Assembly (NCBI GenBank): GCA_020849535.1
Contig: JADLGB010000019.1
Span: forward strand, 1 to 64,000
Reading direction: 5' to 3'
DNA length: 64,000 nucleotides
Source of the DNA: Candidatus Hydrogenedentota bacterium
GTDB lineage: Bacteria > Hydrogenedentota > Hydrogenedentia > Hydrogenedentales > SLHB01
A program made the translations under genes and the position numbers. The notes below the pieces were generated by a model that worked only from the letters and a program-made list of their open reading frames with translations, did no database searches and had not been told where the DNA came from. The stretch's first letter is position 1. The number at the start of each line of letters is the position of its first letter. Of the stretch, positions 37,322 through 63,508 are shown in pieces.

Positions 37322-37815
37322 GTGCGACTGCGACCGAAGCCAGAAACGATGCCATTGAGGAGACCCTTGCGGCCTATCCGAATGCGGGCCGCGACTCCCT
37401 CATTCCCATACTGCAGGATGTGCAGGAGCGATTGGGATACTTGTCCCGAGAGGCCATCGCCCGGATCGGCGAACACCTCGGCCTGCCCGCAAGCAAGATC
37501 TTCGGGGTGGCGACTTTCTACAACCAGTTCCGCTTCCAGCCACTCGGCAAGTACCACATTCAATTGTGCCGCGGCACCGCGTGCCACGTGAAAGGTTCGC
37601 TGAGTCTGCTCGACGCGATTCGGCAGGAATTGAAGATCGAACCGGGCCAGACCTCGAAAGACGGCTTGTTCAGCCTGGAAGTCGTCGCATGCATCGGCGC
37701 CTGCGGTCTGGCGCCGGTCATGTGCATCAATGGCGAGTTTCACGCGGCGATGACCACCCAGCGGGTCCGCATGCTGCTTGAAGAGTATCGGGAAGGGGCG
37801 CAGGAAAATGTCTAA
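37318..37815 (+). CDS. hydC: [FeFe]-hydrogenase subunit HydC (NuoE-like)
   Basis: A 165-aa thioredoxin-like [2Fe-2S] protein homologous to NuoE. The four cluster cysteines are present as CRGTACH (C84, C89) and CIGACG (C125, C129), and the N-terminal helical domain has the usual LIPILQDVQERLGYL. In trimeric bifurcating hydrogenases this subunit supports electron flow between the FMN subunit HydB and the catalytic subunit HydA. It is translationally coupled to rex upstream and overlaps hydB downstream by 8 nt. Confidence 0.93.
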   Translation: MSATATEARNDAIEETLAAYPNAGRDSLIPILQDVQERLGYLSREAIARIGEHLGLPASKIFGVATFYNQFRFQPLGKYHIQLCRGTACHVKGSLSLLDAIRQELKIEPGQTSKDGLFSLEVVACIGACGLAPVMCINGEFHAAMTTQRVRMLLEEYREGAQENV

Positions 37816-39916
37816 CACGCTGCATGAGGTCTGTTGCGAGAAATGCTGGCACAGCCCCGAGAGGCCGTGTCCGGATTTCGTCACGTGTCTGAATGAAGGC
37901 CCCACCTGCCACGAAGACAAGCATTGCGCGCAGGACCGCCACAGCAGGCTTTTGGCCCACCGCCGGGACAAGGTCACCCAGACGGTCATCTACGTCGGCG
38001 CGGGGACCTGCGGCCTGGGAGCGGGTGCGGGGAAGACGGTCCAAGCCGTTCGCGCGCATTTGGCCCGGCGCAACATCAAGGCCGACGTCATCGAGGTAGG
38101 CTGCATCGGGTTGTGCTCGGCGGAGCCCCTCCTGGATGTGCAAATGCCTGGGCTTGCGCGGATCAGTTTCCAGAAAGTCACCCACGAGATGGTCCCGGAG
38201 CTTCTCGATTCCATCATGAAAGGCACCGTGCCTCACCAGCACGTGCTCGGGCAGTTCCGCACCAGCAAAGCTACGGCGTGGCAGGGTGTACCGTTCATTG
38301 ACGAACATCCCTTCTTCGCGCCGCAGACGCGCTGGGTGCTCGCGAATTGCGGCTTGATTGACCCCTCCTCGATCGATGACTACATCGCCGCGGGCGGATA
38401 CCAGGCATTCGCAAGCACCATCAAGACGCAGACCCAAGCCGAGGTGTGCGACCTGGTCGAGAAGGCCGGCCTGCGGGGCCGGGGCGGCGGCGGGTTTCCG
38501 ACCGGCCGCAAGTGGAAGTTCGCACTGAACACCGAAAACGATACCAAGTACCTCGTCTGCAACGCCGACGAAGGTGACCCCGGCGCGTTCATGGACCGCG
38601 CCGTCATCGAAGGGGATCCGCACCGCCTGCTCGAAGGCATGATGATCGCCGCCTACGCCATCGGCGCTGCCAAGGCGTATGTCTACATCCGCGCCGAGTA
38701 TCCGCTGGCCATCGACCGGTTGCGCATGGCCATTGCCCAGGCGGAAGAATACGGGCTCCTCGGTGATAACATCCTCGACAGCGGCTTTAGTCTGCGCATC
38801 GTCATCAAGAAGGGCGCGGGCGCCTTCGTGTGCGGCGAGGAAACCGCCCTGATTCACAGCATTGAAGGCAAACGCGGCATGCCGCGCCCGCGTCCGCCGT
38901 TCCCGGCGGTTCGGGGCCTCTTCGACAAGCCGACGGTGATCAATAACGTTGAGACCCTGGCGAACGTGCCGGGCCTCATGCAAATGGGCGCCGACAACTT
39001 CGCCGCCCTGGGCACGCAGACCAGCAAGGGCACGAAAGTCTTCGCGCTCTCCGGAAAAGTCACGCGGACGGGCCTGGTTGAAGTCGCGATGGGCACCACG
39101 GTGCGGCAAGTCGTCTTCGATGTTGGCGGCGGTATTCCAGATGGGAAAGAATTCAAGGCCGTGCAGATGGGCGGCCCTTCCGGCGGCTGCATCCCCAGCC
39201 AGCACCTCGACATCAAGGTTGATTACGAGTCATTGAAGACCGTGGGCGCTATGATGGGTTCGGGCGGCCTCGTCGTCATGGACGAAGACACCTGCATGGT
39301 GGACGTGGCCAAGTTCTTCATGGAATTCATCCAGCGTGAGAGCTGCGGCAAGTGCATTCCCTGCCGTGAAGGCACGCTGCGGATGCTGGAAGTTTTGCAG
39401 CGCATTACGCGCGGGCGGCGCACCGAAAAGGGCACCGATGCCTTGGAGCGCTTCCAGGGTGTCATGTACCTGAATCGCCTCGCCCAGGTGATCAAGGATA
39501 CCAGCCTATGCGGGCTGGGGCAGACGGCGCCCAATCCCGTGCTCAGTACCATGCGGTGGTTCCGCCACGAGTACGAAGCGCATATCTACGAACGGCGTTG
39601 CCCGGCGGGCGTATGCACGGAACTCCGCACCTTCCACATCGTGGCCGACGCATGCACCGGCTGCGGGAACTGCAAACCCAAGTGCCCGACCTCGGCCATC
39701 GTGGGTATCCCGCAGCGGATTCACTACATCGTCGAAGACAAGTGCATCGGCTGTGGCGGCTGCGCCGATGTATGCCAGCACGGCGCCGTCGTCCTGGCGG
39801 ACGCGCCTCCGGTGGAAGTGGCCGCCGTTCAGGTGGAGGACGATTCGGTATCAGGTCTGTTCTCGTCCGGAACGTTCAAAGGGTGGCATGATGGCAAAGG
39901 GCTCTTGCAGAAGTAG
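37808..39916 (+). CDS. hydB: [FeFe]-hydrogenase FMN/NADH subunit HydB (NuoF-like)
   Basis: A 702-aa NADH-binding subunit. In order: a cysteine-rich N-terminus (C9, C10, C13, C21, C27, C34, C40); a thioredoxin-like domain with GTCGLGAGAG and GCIGLCSAEP; the FMN loop GLRGRGGGGFPTGRKW near 222-236; NADH-binding NADEGDPGAFMDR; the NuoF [4Fe-4S] site ESCGKCIPCREG with the later SLCGLGQTAPNP; and two C-terminal ferredoxin clusters, CTGCGNCKPKCP and CIGCGGCADVCQ. It is the likely site of flavin-based electron bifurcation between NADH and ferredoxin. The first domain shows only three of the usual four 2Fe-2S cysteines. GCAGGAAA precedes the ATG at 37808. Confidence 0.93.
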   Translation: MSNTLHEVCCEKCWHSPERPCPDFVTCLNEGPTCHEDKHCAQDRHSRLLAHRRDKVTQTVIYVGAGTCGLGAGAGKTVQAVRAHLARRNIKADVIEVGCIGLCSAEPLLDVQMPGLARISFQKVTHEMVPELLDSIMKGTVPHQHVLGQFRTSKATAWQGVPFIDEHPFFAPQTRWVLANCGLIDPSSIDDYIAAGGYQAFASTIKTQTQAEVCDLVEKAGLRGRGGGGFPTGRKWKFALNTENDTKYLVCNADEGDPGAFMDRAVIEGDPHRLLEGMMIAAYAIGAAKAYVYIRAEYPLAIDRLRMAIAQAEEYGLLGDNILDSGFSLRIVIKKGAGAFVCGEETALIHSIEGKRGMPRPRPPFPAVRGLFDKPTVINNVETLANVPGLMQMGADNFAALGTQTSKGTKVFALSGKVTRTGLVEVAMGTTVRQVVFDVGGGIPDGKEFKAVQMGGPSGGCIPSQHLDIKVDYESLKTVGAMMGSGGLVVMDEDTCMVDVAKFFMEFIQRESCGKCIPCREGTLRMLEVLQRITRGRRTEKGTDALERFQGVMYLNRLAQVIKDTSLCGLGQTAPNPVLSTMRWFRHEYEAHIYERRCPAGVCTELRTFHIVADACTGCGNCKPKCPTSAIVGIPQRIHYIVEDKCIGCGGCADVCQHGAVVLADAPPVEVAAVQVEDDSVSGLFSSGTFKGWHDGKGLLQK

Positions 39917-39946
39917 CCGCGGTTTAACGGAGTGGAGCGTAACGCA

Positions 39947-41722
39947 ATGACTACGAAGACACTGGATAAGACCGCGCCGGCGCACGTGGAAGAGCGCGCC
40001 GCGGTTACGATAGAAGTGAATGGAAAACCCCTGGAAGCGAAGCCGGGCGAGATGCTGCTGGGCGCCCTGCGCCGGGCGGGGATCCAAGTGCCCACCCTGT
40101 GCAACATGGAAGGCCTGTTTCCCAGCGGCGCGTGCCGTATGTGCGTCGTCGAAGTGGAGGGTATGCCCAACCTCGCCCCGAGTTGCGCGTGCCCGGTGAC
40201 CGCGGGCATGAAAGTACAGACGCACTCCCAACGCGCGATTCGCGCGCGGAAGACGATCATCGAACTGCTGCTCGCCGATCACCCGGACGATTGCCTCTAC
40301 TGCGTGCGCAGCACGAATTGCGAACTGCAGCGGCTTGCCTCAGAACTGGGGGTCCGTCAGCGGCGTTTCTCAGGAGAACGGCGGCGTCTGAAGGAAGATG
40401 CGTCGAGCCCGTCGATCGTGCGCGACCCGGAGAAGTGCATCCTCTGCGGCAAATGCGTGCGGGTGTGCGAAGAGATCCAGGGTGTGGGGGCCATCGATTT
40501 TGTGGGCCGTGGAAGCAAGTCCCAGGTGGGCACCGCGTTTGACGAGAGCCTCAACATCGCCAGTTGCATTTACTGCGGACAGTGCATCGTTGCCTGCCCG
40601 ACCGGCGCCCTGCGCGAGCAGAGCCACATCAAGGAAGTCATGGCGGCGATCAACGATCCCGAAATGACCGTCATCGTGCAGCATGCGCCCAGCGTGTCGG
40701 TCACCTTGGGCGAAGAGTTCGGGCTGAAGCCCGGCGTCGACGTGAATGGCGTGATGACCGCGGCCCTGCGCGAACTCGGCTTCGACCGCGTGTTCGACAC
40801 TGGATTCAGCGCGGACCTGACCATCATGGAGGAAGCCTCGGAACTCGCGCACCGCATCAAGACGGGCGGCGTGCTTCCCATGCTCACCAGTTGTTCGCCG
40901 GGCTGGATCAAGTTCGTGGAACAGTTCTACCCGGAGTTTACGAAGAACCTCTCCACCTGCAAGAGCCCGCAGCAGATGCTTGGTGCGATCATTAAGAGCT
41001 ACTACGCGGAGCGCGAGAAACTTGATCCGCACAAGATCTTCAGCGTGGCCATCATGCCGTGCACGGCGAAGAAGTTCGAGTCAGGCCGCGGTGAGATGCT
41101 CCACGACGGCGTGGCCGACGTGGACGCCGTGCTCACCACGCGCGAGCTGGCCCGGGTCATCCGCATGAGGCACCTCGATTTCCATGCCTTGAAACCCGAG
41201 ACCCCGGACACGCCCTTCGGCGAACGTAGCTCGGCGGGCAAACTCTTCGGCGCGAGCGGCGGCGTTATGGAAGCGGCCTTGCGCACGGCCCACTTCCTGC
41301 TTACGGGCAAGGAATTGGAGAACCTGAAAGTCGATGCCGTTCGCGGGCTCAAGGGCCAGAAAGAAGCCCGCGTGAAGGTGGGCGATCTCGAAGTGGGTGT
41401 GGCCGTGGTGAGCGGGCTCCAGAATGCGCGCAAACTCCTGGAAGAAATCCGCGCCGGCCGGCGCGACCTCCACTTCATCGAGGTCATGACCTGCCCGGGC
41501 GGCTGCATCAATGGTGGGGGCCAGCCCTTCACCACGGACACGGAGGCCGTACGTGCGCGCATGCAGGCCCTGTATGCCATCGACCGGGACGAACACGTGC
41601 GCACCTCGCACTCCAACCCGGCGATTCAGCGGATCTACAGTGAATTCCTTGGGTCGCCCTTGAGTGAAAAGAGCCACCATCTGTTACATACGCACTATTC
41701 GGAACGCGAAGTCCTCACCTGA
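39947..41722 (+). CDS. hydA: [FeFe]-hydrogenase catalytic subunit HydA
   Basis: A 591-aa cytoplasmic H2-evolving subunit. N-terminal electron relay: plant-type [2Fe-2S] domain (C52, C63, C66, C80), His-ligated [4Fe-4S] (DHPDDCLYCVRSTNC, residues 111-125) and two [4Fe-4S] clusters (CILCGKCVRVC, CIYCGQCIVAC). H-cluster domain motifs: L1 TSCSPGW (314-320), L2 MPCTAKKFE (370-378) and L3 EVMTCPGGCINGGGQP (512-527). L1 has Ser where the best-studied monomeric enzymes have a second Cys. With HydB and HydC it should form an NADH/ferredoxin-linked enzyme. The maturases HydE, HydF and HydG are not in this window. GTGGAG precedes the ATG at 39947. Confidence 0.95.
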   Translation: MTTKTLDKTAPAHVEERAAVTIEVNGKPLEAKPGEMLLGALRRAGIQVPTLCNMEGLFPSGACRMCVVEVEGMPNLAPSCACPVTAGMKVQTHSQRAIRARKTIIELLLADHPDDCLYCVRSTNCELQRLASELGVRQRRFSGERRRLKEDASSPSIVRDPEKCILCGKCVRVCEEIQGVGAIDFVGRGSKSQVGTAFDESLNIASCIYCGQCIVACPTGALREQSHIKEVMAAINDPEMTVIVQHAPSVSVTLGEEFGLKPGVDVNGVMTAALRELGFDRVFDTGFSADLTIMEEASELAHRIKTGGVLPMLTSCSPGWIKFVEQFYPEFTKNLSTCKSPQQMLGAIIKSYYAEREKLDPHKIFSVAIMPCTAKKFESGRGEMLHDGVADVDAVLTTRELARVIRMRHLDFHALKPETPDTPFGERSSAGKLFGASGGVMEAALRTAHFLLTGKELENLKVDAVRGLKGQKEARVKVGDLEVGVAVVSGLQNARKLLEEIRAGRRDLHFIEVMTCPGGCINGGGQPFTTDTEAVRARMQALYAIDRDEHVRTSHSNPAIQRIYSEFLGSPLSEKSHHLLHTHYSEREVLT

Positions 41723-41754
41723 CAGGTGAGCGTCTCCGGCCGGGCGGAGGTCCC

Positions 41755-43800
41755 GTGAAGCAGGCAGCGAACATTCCGTTGGTGACGACGATCCGCGAGC
41801 GATGCCGGGTCTGCTACACCTGCGTGCGCGAGTGCCCCGCCAAGGCCATTCGGATCGCGGTTGGCCAGGCCGAGGTGCTTCCGGAACGCTGCATCGGATG
41901 CGGCAACTGCTTGCGGGTGTGCAGCCAGCACGCCAAACGGGTCTACGACTCCACGCCGGACGTCCGCGATGTCTTGGAAAGCGGCGGAAAGGTAGCCGCG
42001 ATCCTGGCGCCGAGTTTTCCCGCGGAGTTCGCCGATATTGAACCGCGACGCATTGTCGGCGCCTTGCGCGCTCTCGGATTCGACCTCGTGTGCGAAGTGG
42101 CCTTCGGCGCCGATCTTGTCGCCGCGCGCTACAGGACGATACTGAAAGAGCGGCCGGACGATTGCTTCATCGCAACGACGTGCCCCGCAATTGTCGCCTA
42201 TGTTGAGCGCTATTGCCCCGACCTGGTACCGCGGCTTGCGCCGATTGTTTCGCCGATGATTGCATGCGCCCGGGCCTTGCGCGCCATCCACGGCAACGAA
42301 TTGCGGGTGGTATTCATCGGCCCATGCATCGCCAAGAAAGGCGAGATCGCCGGCGACTCGGTTCATGAAGATGTGGACGCGGCATTGACCTTCGTGGAAA
42401 TGCGGGGGTTGCTGACTCGCGCGTGTCTGGATCCACGGGAAGTGGATCCCAGTGATTTCGACCCGCCCCACGCGGGCCTTGGCGCACTTTTTCCCATCAC
42501 GAGGGGGCTGCTTCAGGCCGCCCGCTTGCCAGAGAATCTGCTGGATGGCGACGTGGTGGCCGTGCAAGGAGGGGGAGAATTCATTCCGGCCTTGCGCGAA
42601 TTCCAAACCGGAGAGTTGAAAACGCGGTTGCTCGAAGTGCTCGCCTGCGATGGGTGTATCATGGGCCCGGGGATGAGTGTCGATACCTCGCTTTTCTACC
42701 GCAGGGGCCGGGTGAGCCAGTACGTCCGCGAGCGCCTCGCTTCGATGGCGCCCGGCGATTGGTTCGAGGATATGCGCCGCTTCGAGGCGATCGACCTCCG
42801 ACGGACGTTTGAGGCCCAGGACCGCCGAATCGCGGCCCCCTCGACGGAGGACGTCCAGCGGATCCTGAGCCGGATGGGAAAGACGTCGCCCGAAGACGAA
42901 CTGAACTGCGGCGCGTGTGGTTATTCGTCGTGCCGCGAACACGCGGTGGCTATCTTCAAGGGTCTGGCGGAAGCGGAGATGTGTTTGCCCTACGCAATCG
43001 ACCAACTGCGCACGACGATCCGGGATTTGGCGGTGTCGAATGACCAATTGGCGCGGACCCAGGAAGCCCTGCGGCATAGCGAGCGGCTGGCCAGCATGGG
43101 CCAATTGGCGGCGGGCATTGCGCATGAATTGAATAATCCCCTGGGCGTGGTGCTCATGTTCGCCCATATTCTCAAAGATGAGCATGGACAGGACGCTGAA
43201 CTGAACAACGATCTGACTATCATCACGGAGGAAGCGGACCGTTGCAAGAAGATCGTGGCGGGCCTGTTGCACTTCGCACGGCAGAACAAGGTCATGTTCC
43301 GCCGGATCGACATGACCGAGTTGGTCAACCGCTGTCTAGCGGTCATGGAGCCGCCGGAAGGCCTGCGAGTCGTCGTTCAGCATGAAATGGCAGACCGCAA
43401 AGCCGAGATGGACCCGGATCAGATCACGCAGGTTCTCACGAACCTTGTGAACAACGCGTACGCCGCCATGCCGGATGGGGGCGTGCTGACAATTACCACC
43501 GCCGGCGACGATGACTACGTCCGGTTCGTCGTCGCCGATACCGGCGTGGGGATTCCCAAAGAGCATGCGGACAAGATTTTCGAGCCGTTCTTTACGACCA
43601 AACAGTTGGGCAAGGGGACGGGACTCGGGTTGGCGGTAACCTACGGGATCGTGAAGATGCACCGGGGGGACATCAAAGTGGAGTCCAATGCGGACCCGCA
43701 GGCGGGCCCCACCGGCACGACGATCACGGTGAATCTGCCCCGAAGGGCGGAACGATTGGATAAAGAAGCGATGGAAGCACTGATAGGAAAGACAGTATGA
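41755..43800 (+). CDS. Sensory [FeFe]-hydrogenase-like domain fused to histidine kinase
   Basis: A 681-aa soluble fusion. Residues 17-57 hold two ferredoxin clusters ([22 protein letters not shown]). Residues about 75-310 are a diverged H-cluster domain: L1 TTCPAI (C143), L2 GPCIAKKGE (C191) and L3 [14 protein letters not shown] (C298, C301), so all four cubane ligands remain but the proton-shuttle cysteine is replaced by Thr142. A four-cysteine iron-sulfur motif follows (CGACGYSSC plus C410), then a short coiled coil and a complete kinase: H-box AHELNNPL (H457), N-box [15 protein letters not shown] and GKGTGLGLA. It probably senses H2 or redox state and signals by phosphorylation. The GTG start follows GGCGGAGG; the stop overlaps the response regulator. 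Confidence 0.88.
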
Positions 43801-44192
43801 CGGAGCACGCAAAGACAATTCTGATGGTTGACGATGACGAGGACTTCCTCTTTCAACAGAAAGTACAGCTCGAGGCCATCGGGTTTCGCGTGGTCACCGC
43901 GAGCAGCAAGGCCGAAGCCCTCCGGGTCATCGCGGGGTCCCGTCCGGACTTGGTCATCGTGGACCTCATGATGGAGGAGATGGACGCCGGTTTCACGGTG
44001 TGTCACACCATCAAAGCCAAGGACGAATCCATTCCGGTTATTATGTGCACGGGTGTGGTCGGCGAGACCGGTCTGGAATTCGACGCCGTGACGGACGAAG
44101 AACAAGCGTGGGTCAAGGCGGATGTGCTTCTGTCGAAGCCCGTCCGATTCGAACAACTGAAGCGGGAGATCGACCGGCTGCTGGCTTCCTGA
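43797..44192 (+). CDS. Single-domain response regulator
   Basis: A 131-aa receiver domain with the acidic pocket VDDDED, phospho-acceptor Asp56 in VIVDLMMEEMD and the conserved lysine in LLSKPVRF. There is no output domain. A loop insertion (GVVGETGLEFDAVTDEEQAWVKA) before the lysine is longer than in CheY. It overlaps the kinase gene as ATGA, so it is the likely direct phospho-target of the hydrogenase-domain kinase, passing the signal to another protein. Confidence 0.9.
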   Translation: MTEHAKTILMVDDDEDFLFQQKVQLEAIGFRVVTASSKAEALRVIAGSRPDLVIVDLMMEEMDAGFTVCHTIKAKDESIPVIMCTGVVGETGLEFDAVTDEEQAWVKADVLLSKPVRFEQLKREIDRLLAS

Positions 44193-44219
44193 TGGCACAG
44201 CCTATCGGCGGTAACAACA

Positions 44220-45350
44220 GTGGATACCCTTCGCGTACTGGTGTGTGACGACGAGACCGGGATGCGGATCGGCGTGGAGCGCGCGCTTCGCCATTTCTCG
44301 GTGCGGGTGCCGGATGTGAACGGCGAGGTGCACTTCACGGTCGAGCAGGCCGAGAGCGCCGAGCGCGCCCTCGAGTTGATCGACGCGTCGCCGCCGGAGA
44401 TTCTGCTGCTCGATCTCAAACTGCCGGGCATGAGTGGTATCGACCTGCTCGAACGGATCGGTCCGCGGCACCTGGAGACCCTGGTCATCATGATCAGCGC
44501 CTACGCGTCCATTGATGCCGCCGTGCGCGCCACGAAGCAAGGCGCCTACGACTTCCTGGCCAAGCCGTTCACCCCCACGGAACTCAAGGATACCCTGAAG
44601 GAAGCTGCCGAGCACCTGATTCTCGCGAGGCAAGCCAAGAAGCTCGCACTGGAGAAACGGCGGGTCCGGTTCGAGTTCATTTCCGTGGTCGCCCATGAAC
44701 TCAAGGCGCCCATCAACGCGATTGACGGTTACCTGAAGATCATGGCCACGCACGCGGCCGGCGATGACCCCGCCGTGTATGCCCGCATGACGGAGCGGTG
44801 CATGACGCGCATCGCCGGCATGCGCAAGATGATCGAGGATCTGCTGGACCTCACCCGTATCGAATCCGGCCAGAAAAGCCGCGAACTCGTTGAAGTGGAC
44901 GTGTGCGAGGTGGCGCGTACCGCGCTGGATACCGCGCTGCCCAGTGCCCAGGTCCGCGGCATCACCTTGGAACTCCACGCGGCGGCGCCTATCCCCATGA
45001 CTGCGGACCGCGGCGAACTGGAGATCATCTTCAACAACCTCATTTCCAATGCCGTAAAATACAACCGGGACAACGGCCGTGTGGACGTGAAGGTGGAGGC
45101 CGGTGCTGGTCGCGTCCGTATCGTAGTGAAAGACACGGGGATTGGCATCCGGCAAGAGGACGTCGCGAAGCTCTTCAACGACTTCGTCCGCCTCAAGAAC
45201 GAAGAAACGCGAAATGTGCTGGGGAGCGGGCTCGGTTTGTCCATCGTGAAGAAGCTCGCGGTCATGTATGGCGGCGAGGTGTCGGTAACCAGTGAGTTGG
45301 GCGCCGGCAGCACCTTCACCGTGACGCTGAATTGCGAGGCGCCCGTGTAG
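44220..45350 (+). CDS. Receiver domain-histidine kinase protein
   Basis: A 376-aa soluble protein with a receiver first (acidic pair D10-D11, Asp65 in LLLDLKLPG, Lys115 in FLAKPFTP), a linking helix, then a HisKA/HATPase kinase (H159 in VVAHELKAP, NLISNAVKYN, DTGIGI, GSGLGLSIV). Kinases with an N-terminal receiver usually have their activity switched by phosphorylation of that receiver. It follows the single-domain regulator by 27 nt and starts at GTG. It could be the second step of a relay that begins at the hydrogenase-domain kinase. It has no DNA-binding domain. Confidence 0.9.
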   Translation: MDTLRVLVCDDETGMRIGVERALRHFSVRVPDVNGEVHFTVEQAESAERALELIDASPPEILLLDLKLPGMSGIDLLERIGPRHLETLVIMISAYASIDAAVRATKQGAYDFLAKPFTPTELKDTLKEAAEHLILARQAKKLALEKRRVRFEFISVVAHELKAPINAIDGYLKIMATHAAGDDPAVYARMTERCMTRIAGMRKMIEDLLDLTRIESGQKSRELVEVDVCEVARTALDTALPSAQVRGITLELHAAAPIPMTADRGELEIIFNNLISNAVKYNRDNGRVDVKVEAGAGRVRIVVKDTGIGIRQEDVAKLFNDFVRLKNEETRNVLGSGLGLSIVKKLAVMYGGEVSVTSELGAGSTFTVTLNCEAPV

Positions 45351-56995: not shown

Positions 56996-58348
56996 CTATC
57001 CGAAGTACTCCTTCAGCTTGTTCCTCAAGGTCCGCACGCTGATGCCTAGCATGTCCGCGGCGTGCGTGCGATTCTGTTTGCAGTGCTCCAGCGTCTGGAG
57101 GATCAACTGCTTCTCCATTTCGGCAACCGTGGTCCCCGCGCGCACACCCGCCCCCGCCGCCGCGGACTTGATCCCCACCGCATGGTTCAGATTGAAGTGG
57201 CGCGGCTCCAACACGCGGTCGGAAGACAACACCACGGCGCGCTCCACCGCGTTTTGCAGCTCCCGAACGTTGCCCGGCCAGGGATAGTCCATAAACAGGC
57301 TCTGCGCCTCCTTGCCGAATCCGGTTATGTTTCTGCCGTTCTCTCGTACGAACCGTTCAAGGAAGTAGCTCATCAGTGCGGGTATGTCTTCCTTTCGCTC
57401 GCGCAACGGCGGCAGTGCGATCGGAATCACGTTCAACCGGAAGAACAAATCTTCGCGCAATTCGCCCTTCTCGACCGCTTCCTCCAGATTGCGGTTCGAC
57501 GTGCAGATGATGCGCGTGTCCACCTGGATGGGGCGGTTGCCGCCCACCCGCTCAAACTCCCTTTCCTGGAGCGCGCGCAAGAGCTTGGGCTGGAGGGACA
57601 TGCTAATCTCGCTGACCTCATCCAGAAGCAGCGTGCCGGTGTCCGCCAATTCGAAGCGGCCGATCTTGCGCTCGTGCGCGCCGGTGAAGGAGCCCTTCTC
57701 GTGTCCGAACAGTTCACTCTCCAGCAGACCAGCAGATAATGCGGCGCAGTTCACCTTGATGAAAGGCCTGTCCCGCCGGTTTCCGCTGTAATGGATGGCG
57801 CGCGCCACCAGCTCCTTCCCGGTTCCGCTCTCGCCTCGGATGAGCACGGTGGCCCGGCTGTCCGCGACCTTCTTGATCTGTTCATAGACTTCATTCATGG
57901 CCGCGCTTTCGCCCACCATCGACGCGAAGTCGTAGCGCTGATTGAGTTCATCGCGCAGGTAGCGGTTCTCTTGCGCAAGGCGTTCCCGTTCCACCGCCCG
58001 CGTGATGGCCAGCTCCAATTCGTCCGGCGTAAACGGCTTCATGATATAGTCGTAGGCGCCCTCGCGAAGCGCCGTCACGGCCGTCTCCACGGTCGCGTAC
58101 GCGGTCATGATGATGCAGGGCGTGCCCGGGCTCTCCGCGCGTACCGTCCGAAGCACTTCGAGCCCGTCGACCGGCGCCATCTTCAGGTCCGTCACGACCA
58201 CATCGAAGGCCGTGCTCGAAAGCAGGTCGAGCCCTTCGCGGCCGCTCGCCGCGGCCTTCACCTCGTGGCCCGCCCGCAGCAGGGCCTCCTGCACGTACTC
58301 GCGCATCAGGTCTTCGTCGTCAATTACCAGGATAAGTGCTTTCGGCAT
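56996..58348 (-). CDS. Sigma54-dependent response regulator (NtrC/FleR-like)
   Basis: A 450-aa regulator: receiver (ILVIDDED, Asp54 in VVTDLKMAP, Lys in IMKPFTP), AAA+ ATPase (Walker A GESGTGKE, GSFTGA in place of GAFTGA, LLDEVSEIS, R-finger region) and a Fis-type HTH (RTHAADMLGISVRTLRNKL). The Ala-to-Ser change in the GAFTGA loop still leaves the sigma54-contacting residues. It ends the four-gene operon and is cotranscribed with its likely kinase (2-bp gap). The pair resembles FleS-FleR/FlgS-FlgR, which switch on sigma54 flagellar promoters. Confidence 0.94.
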   Translation of the reverse strand: MPKALILVIDDEDLMREYVQEALLRAGHEVKAAASGREGLDLLSSTAFDVVVTDLKMAPVDGLEVLRTVRAESPGTPCIIMTAYATVETAVTALREGAYDYIMKPFTPDELELAITRAVERERLAQENRYLRDELNQRYDFASMVGESAAMNEVYEQIKKVADSRATVLIRGESGTGKELVARAIHYSGNRRDRPFIKVNCAALSAGLLESELFGHEKGSFTGAHERKIGRFELADTGTLLLDEVSEISMSLQPKLLRALQEREFERVGGNRPIQVDTRIICTSNRNLEEAVEKGELREDLFFRLNVIPIALPPLRERKEDIPALMSYFLERFVRENGRNITGFGKEAQSLFMDYPWPGNVRELQNAVERAVVLSSDRVLEPRHFNLNHAVGIKSAAAGAGVRAGTTVAEMEKQLILQTLEHCKQNRTHAADMLGISVRTLRNKLKEYFG

Positions 58349-58350
58349 GA

Positions 58351-59499
58351 TTACTCCGGCTGCGGTAAGCGCACGCGAAACGTCGAGCCCTTGGCCGGCT
58401 CGCTCTCGACTTCGATGACACCCCCGTGGGCTTCCACGATTTTTGAGGCCACGGCCAGTCCAAGGCCGGTGCCCTTCTCCTTAGTCGTAAAGAACGGCGA
58501 GAACACTTGTTCCCGCTGGGCTGGCGTCATCCCGCACCCGGAATCCTCGATTGCCACCCAGACGTTCTGTTCCCGGGCGCGCGCGGATATCCGGATTTCG
58601 CCCGTGCCGTCGATGCTCTGGAAAGCGTTCAGCAGGATGTTCAGAAAGACCTGCCGCATCTTGTCCACATCGACGTGCACGTGCAGGTTCTTGTCGACTC
58701 CGTTCACGACCGCCACTGGGCGTTCGCCGATTTCCAGGTAGCCCAGCGCCGATTCGACCAATGCCGCGCACGATACCGGACGCAAGCGCAGTTGGATCGG
58801 GCGCGTGTATTCGAGCAACTCGCTCACGACACGTTCCAGTTCCTTCGCGCCCACTTCGATCTTGGCCACCAGACGCCGCCGGGGATCGCCCTCGTCGAGG
58901 TCGCGTGCCAGCAGTGCGGCAAAGCCGCGGATTCCGCCCAGCGGATTGCGAATTTCGTGCGCGACTGTCGCCGCCATCTCACCTACCGCGGCCAGCCGGT
59001 CCTGCTGGCGGATCTTCATGCGGAGGTTTTCGATTTCCGTCTGGTCCTGGAACACTTTCACGACGCCAATGCGCGTCCCATTCCGGTCGCACAGAGGAGA
59101 GTCCCGCTCCAGAACGCGCACGCAATGCCCATCTTTGGCCCGCAACTCACGAAAGGAGGCCGTGTCCGGACCGGCAAACTCGCGCCCAAACGCATCATGG
59201 AAGTGGTTGCCTATCAGGTCCGCGGCCGAATAGCCCAGCACGCGCCCCGCCGCGCCATTGAATGTCGTGATCCGTTCCGCGTTGTCCACGGCGATCACGC
59301 CGTCCGACATGCTCTCCAAGATCGAATTCAGGTAATCGCTGGTCAGGGCGAGTTCCTGATTGCGCGCCTCCAACTCGCGGTCCAGCTCATGCAGCCTCGT
59401 CTCCAGACGCCGATACGACTCCTCCATCGTCTGTGTGCTGCGCGTGAATGCTTCAAACGCCTCCGCGAGGGCGCGTATGTCGATGTCCTGTTCTGGCAT
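58351..59499 (-). CDS. Cytoplasmic PAS histidine kinase (FleS/FlrB-like)
   Basis: A 382-aa soluble kinase with no membrane segment. An N-terminal coiled coil (AFEAFTRSTQTMEESYRRLE, continuing with heptads to about 50) resembles the start of FleS/FlrB proteins. A PAS domain (about 55-155) follows, then HisKA with VAHEIRNPLGGI (H181) and HATPase motifs LNILLNAFQS, DSGCGM and GTGLGLAVA. It should phosphorylate the adjacent sigma54 regulator. Soluble kinases of this group sense an internal state such as flagellar assembly rather than an external ligand. Confidence 0.92.
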   Translation of the reverse strand: MPEQDIDIRALAEAFEAFTRSTQTMEESYRRLETRLHELDRELEARNQELALTSDYLNSILESMSDGVIAVDNAERITTFNGAAGRVLGYSAADLIGNHFHDAFGREFAGPDTASFRELRAKDGHCVRVLERDSPLCDRNGTRIGVVKVFQDQTEIENLRMKIRQQDRLAAVGEMAATVAHEIRNPLGGIRGFAALLARDLDEGDPRRRLVAKIEVGAKELERVVSELLEYTRPIQLRLRPVSCAALVESALGYLEIGERPVAVVNGVDKNLHVHVDVDKMRQVFLNILLNAFQSIDGTGEIRISARAREQNVWVAIEDSGCGMTPAQREQVFSPFFTTKEKGTGLGLAVASKIVEAHGGVIEVESEPAKGSTFRVRLPQPE

Positions 59500-59516: not shown

Positions 59517-59957
59517 TCAGGCCTTGCGGTCCACGTGTCCCGCGCCATCTTCGTCAACCCGGTATTGCTTCACCGCCCGTTGTCCGCGGCGCAGGGCATC
59601 CAGCGCCAATTTGACTTCCCCCATCCGCTCCCGGGCCTGCTGCGATGCCTTCCGCGAGATCTTCTCGAGCTGTTTCGCGAGGTCGCGGGCCTGATCCGCC
59701 AAAGCACGCACCTGGTGGGCTCGCTGGGGGCTGGCCGCGGCGCCGTTGCGCCATTCCCGGTTCAGCAAATGGAATTCCTCGTCGAGTTGGGTCAGGCGCT
59801 GCGTGAAAGCACTCTGCTGGGCCGACAAGATTTCCAGATTCTCCTTCTCCAGTTCGGCCGGAAGCGTCTCATACGCGTGCAGCATTTCCGTGTACAGGGC
59901 GATCTGACGCTCAAAGTAATCAGTGATCCGCGCGCCGATATCGGTCGTGCCGCCCAT
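59517..59957 (-). CDS. Coiled-coil protein, FlgN-like
   Basis: A 146-aa all-helical, charged protein (ALYTEMLHAYETLPAELEKE, QQSAFTQRLTQLDEEFHLLN, AHQVRALADQARDLAKQLEK) without membrane segments. Length, helical hairpin pattern and the position next to a FleS-FleR-like pair suggest the FlgN flagellar chaperone fold, but sequence similarity alone is weak. I take the ATG at 59957, 8 nt after GGGGGGA; the ATG at 59966 overlaps the previous stop (ATGA) and is also possible. Confidence 0.55.
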   Translation of the reverse strand: MGGTTDIGARITDYFERQIALYTEMLHAYETLPAELEKENLEILSAQQSAFTQRLTQLDEEFHLLNREWRNGAAASPQRAHQVRALADQARDLAKQLEKISRKASQQARERMGEVKLALDALRRGQRAVKQYRVDEDGAGHVDRKA

Positions 59958-59962
59958 GGGTG

Positions 59963-62900
59963 TCATCCCCCCATCGGCGCGGTGGAAGTGGCCGTGCCCC
60001 CGGAGCGCAATCGCATTTCCAGGCGCGCGTACTCCGCCTTGAGGCGCGCATCCTCCGCGAACGGCGCGTCGCTGGCGGCCACCTCGTCAAGAAGGCCGAC
60101 GCCCTCCGCGAATTCGTTTAGTTTCAGCCTTGAATTGGCTTCTTGGAACTTCGCCCAGGCCGAGTCGCCGCCCTCGGGAGCCGCTTCCGCCGCCAACGCG
60201 TACGCCTCCGCGGCCGCCGTGTAGTCGCCGTGCTCGAACAGGACATCCGCCCACCGCACGGCCGTGCGCTGCAAGCGGGGCGCTTCATCCGGGTGGCTGC
60301 CCACGCGCGTCTTCAGGTCCATCACCAGGGCGCGCGCCCGCGCCATCTGACCCGTCACGAGGAGGGCATTCAGCAAATCATTGTCACCCTCCTCGGTCCG
60401 CAGGTCAGGGTACTTGTTGTACGCCTGCTCCATCTTCTCCAGCGCAAGCGCCGCGTCCATGCGCAACAATGCCTTCCCATGGCCGCACAGAAAGGCGTAG
60501 GCCGTTGCGGGAGACAGCGTCTGCGGATCCACGCGCCTGGCAGTCGCCAGGGCGGTGCCTGCGTCGCCCACTCTGAGCAGGGCCAGGGTCGTCTGCGCGA
60601 GCACCTCGGGGTCGTTCGTCAAGCCCGCCGCGGCCGCATAGGTTTCCGCCGCGTGTTTCGCAAAACCAAGATCGGCGTATAACCCGCCGAGGGACTCCAG
60701 CACCTGAATGTGCTGCGCTTTGCCGGTGGTCGCGATTGCCAGGTTCGACAGCCGATCCAGCGCGCTCTCCGCCTGTCCCTGTTTCAGCAAAACGGACGCC
60801 AAGTGAAGGTTGCCCTCGAAAGCCTCGGCAGACTGGGGCGACACCATCAGCAGATGCTCATATGCTTCCCGCGCCTTCCGCAATTCGTTGACCCGCTCGA
60901 AGGCCTTGCCCGCGGCCAGCAAGGTCCGCGGGTCATCTCCTCCTGCCTGGGCCGCGGCTAGAAAGCTCTCGGCCGCCTCCGCATCCCGCCCGGAGAGTTG
61001 CAGTAATTCGCCTTCGTTTGCCAGCACGTCGGCGCGGTCGCGGAACCGCTGACTCGCCAGCATCGCTACTTTGAGGGCTTCGCGACGGTTTCCCAGCTCA
61101 TCCAGGGTCCGGCTGAGTTCGACGAAGGCATCCGGCGTACGTTCCGACTCGGGGAAGAAGCTGATCAGTTCGCGCAGAATCTCCTCGGCCTTGCCCGGGG
61201 CTCCGCTGACCCGATACGCCTTTGCCAATAACAGGTAGATGACGTCGTTTCCCTCAATTGTAGTCGCCGTTTCGAGACGGTTCTCGAGATCGCGAATCGC
61301 CGCCGCATGATCGCCTCGCGCCAGGGCCATCTCGCCCAGGTGCGCCACCGCCTGTGCGCCCACGGGACTGTCACCCCCCGCCAACGCCACCTGCCGGAAG
61401 ATGTTTTCCGCGTCTTGCGTGTGGCCTTCCTTGGCGTAGGCCTTCGCGAGCAGCAATCGCGCTTCCGGAACGTACGCGGAATCCGAATGCTGGTCCAGCA
61501 AGCGCTGGGCGAATTGCTGTTGCTCGTCCAGGCGCCCCAGCCGGTCGGTGACCCGAGCCGCGCGAATCAGTGTTTCATCCGTACCGGAGACGTCCACGAG
61601 CGTGATCAAGAGATTGCGATACGTATCCAGCGCCGCGATATCCGCCCCGGCCCGCTCGTAGAGGTCCGCCTTCCAGCGGAGCACATTCGCCGACTTCATC
61701 TGGTTTCCCGCGACGGCGAGGTACTGGTTAATCTCTTGGTGTAGCCGTTCCGTGTCGGTGTCCTTTACTTTCTCGGGCAGTTCGCCATAGCTGGCCGCTA
61801 TGTGGAGGTACAGCAATTCGGGATCGATATCCGATGCGGGCTGCTCGCCGATCACCGGCGCCAGCAACTTCTTCGCTTCGGAAAACTGACGCATATCGAC
61901 CAATGCCGATGCGCTGCGCACCAGCGCCGAAATGTCTTCCCCGATGGGCGCCCGCGCCACCTGGCCGCCAGGCTCGCGCTCGCGAACGGACTGCAGGATC
62001 GCGAACGTACCCACCGTGCACGCCACCGCCGCGGCCAGCGACGTCCATGTCTTGAGCGTGCCGCCTCCCGCAAGGCCGGTGAGGACACCAAGCACCCGGC
62101 TCCCCAGCGATTCCCGAGAGGCGAGCGTAGACGCAACACTTTCTCCCGTGGAGTCCGGGACGGGACGTTGAAGCAAATCGATTTCCGCGATTTCCGTGTC
62201 GCTCAATCTTACGGCCATGTCGTCCCGGGCCGGTGATGCCGCCGCAAGATTCTCCCCTATCTCCTCGCTCAGTTCGCGAATCGATGGAATCTCAATCGAT
62301 TCCGCCGGCGCCTCGCCGGTCACTTCTTTGGCGGCGCTCGCGATCACTGCGTCCAGAAGCTCGTCCACTTGAGGCACCGCGGCTGCAATATTCTCGGAAC
62401 CGACCTGCGACTCGGACGCCACGCGCTTGGCCCGCTGCACCGGATCGGTTTCGCTGCCCGGCTGCGCTTGTGTCTGGCCGGTCATAACCGCGGGGGCCGG
62501 CGGCCCACTGGCGGAGGCCGCGGGTGGAGTAAACGCCTCGTCCATGTCTGAACCCATGGACGTCTCAACCGGGGTCAACGGTGTATCGAGATCGCGATTA
62601 TCCAGCACGTCCTCCGACGCGATGCTCGCCAACAACGCATCGAGATCGCCCTGGCTTAACTGCGTCGACTCGGTCTCGGCCGAATCGGCCTGAGGGGGGA
62701 TGTCGGCTGGGATCGAGCCGCCGTCACTCGGCGCACTGGCCGCGTCTTGCGCGCGCAATTGCGCCATCGACGTGCTCGCCCCCGCGATGGATTGAAGCAA
62801 CAAGTCGATATCGCTCTGCCCCAGCGTCGCACCGGACCCCACGGCTTGTGCGGGCTTCTCGTTGTGCTCCGGCGCAGCCGGCTCCGACGCGGCCTTGGCG

Positions 62901-63508
62901 ACCCGATCCGCCTCGCGGCGCAGGAGTTGATCGATCTCGTCCTGAGTGGCCGTACCTGTGTCGTGCGTAGGTTCTTCTCGGCGCGAGGGCTCCACAGCCA
63001 AACTGACTTGCAGGAGGCGGTCGATTTCGTCCTGGTCAATTGCACCGCCCACTTCTTCAGGCGCGGTATCATCAACTCTGGCCGTCGCACTGTCGTGCGC
63101 CTGCACGGGCGTAGCGGAGGGCGTTGATGCAGCGTCCTGCACGGACCGCAGAAGTCGATCGATTTCATCCTGATCGACTGCCCCGCCATCTTCAAGATCC
63201 GCGGGTGCCACAGTCCCCGGCGTCTTCTGTCCGTTGGTCGCGAATGCCATGACCACATCGTCCAGTTCACCCTGTCCGATAAGACCGAGGTCTGGGGGAA
63301 GTGAAACCGGGGGAGGCGGTTGGAACGGGACGCGCGGGGATGGAGGAGGAGCACTGCCTGTCTCCACCTTGCGCATGCGTTCCTTGCGGGCGGCAAGCTC
63401 CGCGGCCAAGGCCGCGTCAAGTTCGTCTTGGCTGATCAACGGTTCCGGCACGGGGTTGGATTGTCCGCCCACACGGTCACCGTAACTGTGTCCCGAATCG
63501 TCCGCCAC
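59963..63508 (-). CDS. Large protein with repeated FliM-N-terminus-like motifs, one TM segment and TPRs
   Basis: An 1181-aa protein. Residues 1-450 are low-complexity with short conserved islands of the form x-Q-[DEGS]-[DE]-[IL]-D-x-[LV]-[LV]: ISQDELDAAL (25-34), LIGQGELDDVV (76-86), VDQDEIDRLL (111-120), IDQDEIDRLL (157-166), ATQDEIDQLL (187-196), LGQSDIDLLL (229-238) and LSQGDLDALL (284-293), plus degenerate VPQVDELLDAV (378-388) and LSDTEIAEIDLL (435-446). These copy the LSQxEIDALL peptide at the N-terminus of FliM that binds CheY-P. A membrane segment (about 488-506) follows, then tetratricopeptide-like repeats to the end. GTG start with GAAGGTGAA upstream. First gene of the four-gene operon. 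Confidence 0.8.
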   Translation of the reverse strand: MADDSGHSYGDRVGGQSNPVPEPLISQDELDAALAAELAARKERMRKVETGSAPPPSPRVPFQPPPPVSLPPDLGLIGQGELDDVVMAFATNGQKTPGTVAPADLEDGGAVDQDEIDRLLRSVQDAASTPSATPVQAHDSATARVDDTAPEEVGGAIDQDEIDRLLQVSLAVEPSRREEPTHDTGTATQDEIDQLLRREADRVAKAASEPAAPEHNEKPAQAVGSGATLGQSDIDLLLQSIAGASTSMAQLRAQDAASAPSDGGSIPADIPPQADSAETESTQLSQGDLDALLASIASEDVLDNRDLDTPLTPVETSMGSDMDEAFTPPAASASGPPAPAVMTGQTQAQPGSETDPVQRAKRVASESQVGSENIAAAVPQVDELLDAVIASAAKEVTGEAPAESIEIPSIRELSEEIGENLAAASPARDDMAVRLSDTEIAEIDLLQRPVPDSTGESVASTLASRESLGSRVLGVLTGLAGGGTLKTWTSLAAAVACTVGTFAILQSVREREPGGQVARAPIGEDISALVRSASALVDMRQFSEAKKLLAPVIGEQPASDIDPELLYLHIAASYGELPEKVKDTDTERLHQEINQYLAVAGNQMKSANVLRWKADLYERAGADIAALDTYRNLLITLVDVSGTDETLIRAARVTDRLGRLDEQQQFAQRLLDQHSDSAYVPEARLLLAKAYAKEGHTQDAENIFRQVALAGGDSPVGAQAVAHLGEMALARGDHAAAIRDLENRLETATTIEGNDVIYLLLAKAYRVSGAPGKAEEILRELISFFPESERTPDAFVELSRTLDELGNRREALKVAMLASQRFRDRADVLANEGELLQLSGRDAEAAESFLAAAQAGGDDPRTLLAAGKAFERVNELRKAREAYEHLLMVSPQSAEAFEGNLHLASVLLKQGQAESALDRLSNLAIATTGKAQHIQVLESLGGLYADLGFAKHAAETYAAAAGLTNDPEVLAQTTLALLRVGDAGTALATARRVDPQTLSPATAYAFLCGHGKALLRMDAALALEKMEQAYNKYPDLRTEEGDNDLLNALLVTGQMARARALVMDLKTRVGSHPDEAPRLQRTAVRWADVLFEHGDYTAAAEAYALAAEAAPEGGDSAWAKFQEANSRLKLNEFAEGVGLLDEVAASDAPFAEDARLKAEYARLEMRLRSGGTATSTAPMGG

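Follow-up and report, generated by a model that had tools for sequence, protein, structure and literature searches.

A repeated FliM-type motif in a membrane-anchored TPR protein of Candidatus Hydrogenedentota, a possible docking array for CheY

The array gene and its operon

The window analysed here is a stretch of 64,000 nucleotides from a Candidatus Hydrogenedentota bacterium. At 59963-63508 (-) it carries an open reading frame with a GTG start encoding a membrane protein of 1181 residues, a real gene with orthologs across the whole phylum Candidatus Hydrogenedentota. From the N- to the C-terminus, the protein comprises a disordered acidic tail bearing a series of short motifs (median pI about 4 among the orthologs), a single membrane helix, and a TPR superhelix of ~650 residues. 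The earlier note on this DNA, made from the sequence alone, had described one membrane segment followed by TPRs, and this layout was borne out: the hydrophobic segment lies at 61985-62050 (-), residues ~487-508, with no further segment above threshold in the 1181 residues, and the region C-terminal to it (59999-61936, -) matches Pfam TPR_19 at 3e-15. An AlphaFold2 model of residues 478-1181, built from an alignment of 45 orthologs, shows the helix and a continuous TPR superhelix at a mean pLDDT of 89. Foldseek searches with the TPR model returned generic TPR proteins.

Basic residues favor the N-terminal side of the membrane helix in 38 of 44 orthologs, with 4.4 against 1.8 in 20 residues, which predicts a cytoplasmic position for the motif-bearing tail and a periplasmic one for the TPRs. 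Taken alone, the protein encoded in the window, with 2 basic residues on the N-terminal side of the helix against 3 on the other, shows no positive-inside bias. Ortholog comparison also identified a conserved motif, VGSENIAAAVP in the window's protein (62372-62404, -; consensus VGSENLAAA), which most orthologs carry once, ahead of the membrane helix, and which ranks among their most conserved non-TPR residues.

The array gene heads a conserved operon. It is followed by genes for a 149-residue helical coiled-coil protein (59517-59966, -), a PAS histidine kinase (58351-59499, -) and an NtrC-type sigma-54 response regulator (56996-58348, -), the latter two identified by domain search. Across about 16 genera, 20 loci were compared: the kinase neighbors the array gene at 19 of them and the regulator does so at 17, whereas tblastn detected the coiled-coil protein at 12, and position and size point to it at several others. 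The kinase resembles FleS/FlrB by eye, and the kinase and regulator may be a pair of the FleS-FleR or FlrB-FlrC kind, their domains and common operon agreeing with this. The coiled-coil protein is FlgN/FliT-like in shape only: it has no Pfam match, the FlgN family included, and FlgN (2fup) and FliT (3a7m) appear among its fold hits with E above 1. A search upstream of the array gene revealed no conserved sigma-54 promoter. In two members of one genus, fliM lies ~12-14 kb from the array gene.

Elsewhere in the window (37778-45350, +), an [FeFe]-hydrogenase cluster with NuoF-like and HydA-like genes is followed by two kinase genes, the first encoding a histidine kinase fused to an iron-hydrogenase domain and the second a receiver-histidine kinase, which are possibly a hydrogen-sensing kinase pair. 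A proposed tie between the array and the receiver-kinase near 44 kb found no evidence in its favor.

The motif array

Seven good copies of a FliM-type motif and two degenerate ones had been noted in the tail, and all nine were recovered, within the first ~450 residues. The good copies are LISQDELDAALA (63404-63439, -; residues 24-35), LIGQGELDDVVM (63248-63283, -; residues 76-87), which has a weak end, AVDQDEIDRLLR (63146-63181, -; residues 110-121), AIDQDEIDRLLQ (63008-63043, -; residues 156-167), TATQDEIDQLLR (62918-62953, -; residues 186-197), TLGQSDIDLLLQ (62792-62827, -; residues 228-239) and QLSQGDLDALLA (62627-62662, -; residues 283-294). The degenerate copies are AVPQVDELLDAVIA (62339-62380, -; residues 377-390) and RLSDTEIAEIDLLQ (62168-62209, -; residues 434-447). 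The formula first given for the motif, Q-[DEGS]-[DE]-[IL]-D-x-L-L, holds in full for five of the seven good copies; the final positions depart from it in copy 1 (QDELDAAL) and in copy 2 (QGELDDVV).

A looser pattern, Qx[DE][IL]Dx[LV][LV], matches six times in the 486-residue N-terminal region and nowhere in the remaining protein. Because 20,000 composition shuffles gave a mean of 0.0011 loose matches and never more than one, a chance origin of the array is excluded. In a comparison of the window's species with G001, its nearest relative, identity is 86% in the motif cores and 66% in the linkers (Fisher p = 2e-4). A 30-residue motif peptide had no match among PDB sequences, the query being too short to be informative.

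The genome from which the window derives contains 15 motif-like DNA matches in all, compared with 4 for a reversed-pattern control, and ten matches other than those described below look accidental. The motif occurs in FliM, in the adjoining FliN/FliY-like C-ring protein and in the array protein, and no other protein outside the C-ring was found to carry it in this genome. The FliN/FliY-like protein (L001:2386-3351, +) contains GNPLSQDEISDILKESE; its LSQDEI motif lies mid-protein, directly before a SpoA-type domain, and the protein has no CheC match in Pfam.

Orthologs contain between 0 and 18 array copies as counted by one regular expression. The consensus over 141 distinct copies is L-S-Q-[DSAE]-[DE]-[LI]-D-A-L-[LI], and comparison with 39 FliM N-termini from the same phylum places the docking-motif sequence LSQx[DE][ILV]DxLL in the array. 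Diverged copies keep this consensus across families. Near-identical tandem units of 25-30 residues are present in several species (L023, L026, L028), indicating that the array grows by recent duplication; the arrays of G004 and G021, two genomes without CheY, hold relics that for the most part have no Q. Copy numbers from short-read assemblies can be lower bounds, as assemblies break inside the array repeats (at the end of L158 and the start of G047:C226). In G047, what looked like another array protein close to fliM was rejected on this ground: it is the 5' portion of the one array gene, interrupted within the repeats by a contig end. The missing N-terminus of the G024 ortholog was searched for and not found. 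G052 has two near-identical array genes on separate contigs (L101, L130) that are one repeat apart and may represent strain variation.

Distribution among flagellated genomes

A clear ortholog is present in 46 of 68 Hydrogenedentota genomes, and FliM likewise in 46 of 68. Both occur together in 43 genomes and both are absent from 19 (Fisher p = 6e-11, an optimistic value that counts genomes as independent), such that 19 of the 22 FliM-less genomes also lack the ortholog. The exceptions are three genomes with an ortholog but no FliM (G004, G040, G057) and three with FliM but no ortholog (G014, G017, G045), all six being drafts of 60-91% completeness. Within one family (f10), the sole FliM-bearing genus has the ortholog and the remaining genera have neither; by taxonomy, the absences in this family and in G007, a 100% complete genome, are separate events. 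Arrays in lineages without flagella, named in the earlier note as evidence that would count against its reading, were looked for with a favorable outcome, 43 of the 46 orthologs residing in FliM-bearing genomes. In a scan of 84,980 species with one TPR peptide pattern, all matches titled to phylum were Hydrogenedentota; two more are titled only "uncultured bacterium", and the scan is a weak test of absence elsewhere.

Array copy number and CheY

Canonical CheY was identified in the che clusters L177, L179, L181, L182 and L184 and used to search 60 genomes; a CheX-like gene, as judged by eye, lies beside CheY in L184. Array copy number is higher in genomes with canonical CheY. A phylogenetic regression that used the TPR gene tree and took genome size as a covariate gave p = 0.005 for this relationship over 44 orthologs, and p = 0.0003 for genomes with a completeness of 90% or more. 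Three motif definitions gave p values of 0.02 to 0.0007 for all genomes and 0.006 to 0.0002 for those at least 90% complete. A plain Mann-Whitney test gave 0.13 over all genomes, which is not significant, and 0.008 in the better genomes. The comparison of CheY with copy number was made post hoc. The number of CheW genes was also considered as a correlate of copy number and set aside, since genome size confounds that relationship (partial p = 0.064).

Eleven of the 13 orthologs from CheY-less genomes have 0-2 array copies. The exceptions are the window's genome (94% complete), with seven copies, and its congener G001 (81% complete), with eight; canonical CheY was not found in either draft assembly, although the motif cores remain conserved between the two, and this is the main point against CheY as the partner. 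G000 showed just two stand-alone CheW matches, and G002, another congener of the window's genome and G001, has CheY. Three explanations present themselves for the two exceptions: their drafts may lack the che cluster, the cluster may have been lost in recent evolution, or a different protein may be the ligand in this genus. At least three CheY-bearing genomes have only 0-1 array copies. In the CheY-less genomes with a readable FliM N-terminus, FliM retains LSQ[DE]EVDLLL. CheZ was not found above cut-off in these Hydrogenedentota genomes; a weak CheZ-like match below cut-off is present at L120 and L121 (G026 and G034), in a flagellated genus without CheW and CheY.

A proposed CheY-P docking scaffold and its alternatives

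In models of flagellar switching, CheY-P usually meets one docking motif per FliM. We propose that the array protein is a flagellar scaffold whose tail serves as a multivalent docking strand for CheY-P, a reading to which we assign a probability of roughly 0.55. The idea of a membrane scaffold that collects CheY-like proteins goes back to the earlier note and is partly supported: a CheY-binding-like array in such a scaffold is favored by a consensus equal to that of FliM, a nearly perfect co-occurrence with FliM and a copy number that tracks CheY. The further suggestion that the protein seeds secretion assembly is supported by nothing in these data.

We infer CheY binding, a location at the motor and an effect on switching as follows. 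The periplasmic TPR superhelix would anchor the protein at or near the motor, in the manner of the TPR scaffolds of Campylobacter and spirochetes, with the long, acidic and flexible cytoplasmic tail displaying several FliM-type LSQxDLDALL helices. Each helix would be expected to dock phosphorylated CheY in the groove used by the single N-terminal motif of FliM. Acting together, the helices would serve as a multivalent antenna or buffer, concentrating CheY-P beside the C-ring and altering the gain or the timing with which the motor switches. Tandem duplication would adjust the number of copies. The motif "EIDALL" of FliM and FliY is a CheY-P binding site, and the FliM N-terminus gathers CheY-P ahead of a second binding step (PMC9126983); many sites on tethered tails would extend this gathering.

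The main rival partner is FlhG, which interacts with FliM through the same N-terminal segment (PMC11236974, PMC12826062) and was not considered in the earlier note. The array may bind this MinD-type ATPase, and FlhF by way of it, and not CheY; the protein would then be a landmark of the HubP/FimV kind, competing with FliM for FlhG and controlling where flagella form or how many there are. FlhF passes the cut-off in 46 of 60 genomes, comprising nearly all array carriers, the CheW-less ones included, and flhF and flhG are adjacent in all four genomes inspected, among them the window's genome, which has FlhG and in which CheY was not found. Retention of the FliM motif in CheY-less genomes is also what FlhG binding would predict, and the acidic repeat tail recalls HubP (PMC12918733). 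However, the topology is opposite to that of HubP, and LysM and FimV domains were not found. Genomes have FlhG whether or not they have CheY, such that no fall in copy number would be expected were FlhG the array ligand, yet array copies fall where CheY is missing. We consider FlhG binding unlikely on this evidence, and CheY is preferred as the partner mainly because CheY-less genomes keep the FliM motif while their arrays are mostly short.

A general stator or motor scaffold resembling PflB or FlcA is improbable; in this reading the tail would bind a different partner, such as the receiver of the operon's NtrC-type regulator or some other receiver, and the likeness to the CheY site would reflect only a shared helical mode of docking. 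The combination of TPRs and a membrane anchor resembles PflB and FlcA (PMC7990780), a Campylobacter motor scaffold chain (9hmf_K) is among the fold matches, the regulator shares the operon in 17 of 20 loci, and dozens of other receivers are encoded in the window's genome, where CheY was not found. The fold match is to a generic TPR, however, the link between copy number and CheY would be unexpected for such a scaffold, and the motif is otherwise found only in C-ring proteins of the window's genome. Low-complexity expansion of a disordered tail with no specific ligand, to which the near-identical tandem units and widely varying copy number might point, is very improbable given that the cores are conserved while the linkers diverge, that the consensus persists in diverged copies across families and that copy number tracks CheY.

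If the tail is a docking strand for CheY-P, a more specific form of the proposal can be put forward tentatively, as one we hold to be possible: a motor-anchored CheY-P antenna in which an evolvable number of repeats sets the local signal pool, and hence the gain or memory of switching, and which decays with the loss of chemotaxis. A membrane-tethered array of this kind would be a tunable local signal reservoir, a control layer absent from switching models, in a phylum for which we know of no studied motor. Lineages that lack CheY and keep FlhG provide a natural experiment in which both roles known for the FliM motif can be told apart, since FliM retains its motif there and the arrays are mostly short.

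Comparison with known systems

The array shares the helix motif L-S-Q-x-E-[IV]-D-x-L-L with FliM and FliY, and the genome's own FliM has MADILSQDEVDLLL. FliM is a soluble C-ring protein with one N-terminal copy, whereas the array protein is a membrane protein with up to 18 copies in its tail; it lacks the FliM middle domain (PF02154) and the FliN-like C-terminal domain, and the genome encodes a separate true FliM. The C-terminal helix of CheZ, with a similar SQxxxDxLL, binds CheY and also resembles the array motif, but CheZ is a phosphatase that carries it in single copy whereas the array is multicopy.

HubP, which has FlhF, FlhG and the chemotaxis array among its clients, is like FimV a large bitopic protein with TPRs and acidic disordered repeats of variable copy number (PMC12918733). 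Such a region is present in the array protein (median pI about 4, 0-18 copies). The order is reversed, however, with cytoplasmic repeats, the membrane helix and then TPRs that are predicted to be periplasmic and not cytoplasmic. Pfam gave no match to a periplasmic LysM domain in the array protein, and the FimV TPR model TIGR03504 scores 9.9 bits against a cut-off of 30.65.

PflA and PflB of Campylobacter and FlcA/BB0236 of the spirochete collar are periplasmic or membrane-anchored TPR proteins restricted to flagellated lineages (PMC7990780). The array protein shares with PflB-like stator scaffolds the trait of a TPR protein anchored by a single helix in flagellated bacteria. It has no family-level sequence match to PflA/PflB or FlcA/BB0236, the FlcA C-terminal family model NF047371 scoring 8.6 bits against a cut-off of 300. 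We know of no motif array in any of these proteins.

By the features tested, the array protein is distinct from FliM, HubP/FimV and FlcA. In the open-access literature searched, we found no prior description of an array of CheY-docking motifs, and the comparison suggests that the Hydrogenedentota array may be a tethered signal-collecting device without described precedent there. By analogy, the protein would work like a combination of the three systems, joining the docking motif of FliM, the repeat tail of HubP and the membrane-anchored TPRs of PflB and FlcA, with a docking peptide that motors normally use once to catch the CheY signal repeated here up to about 18 times.
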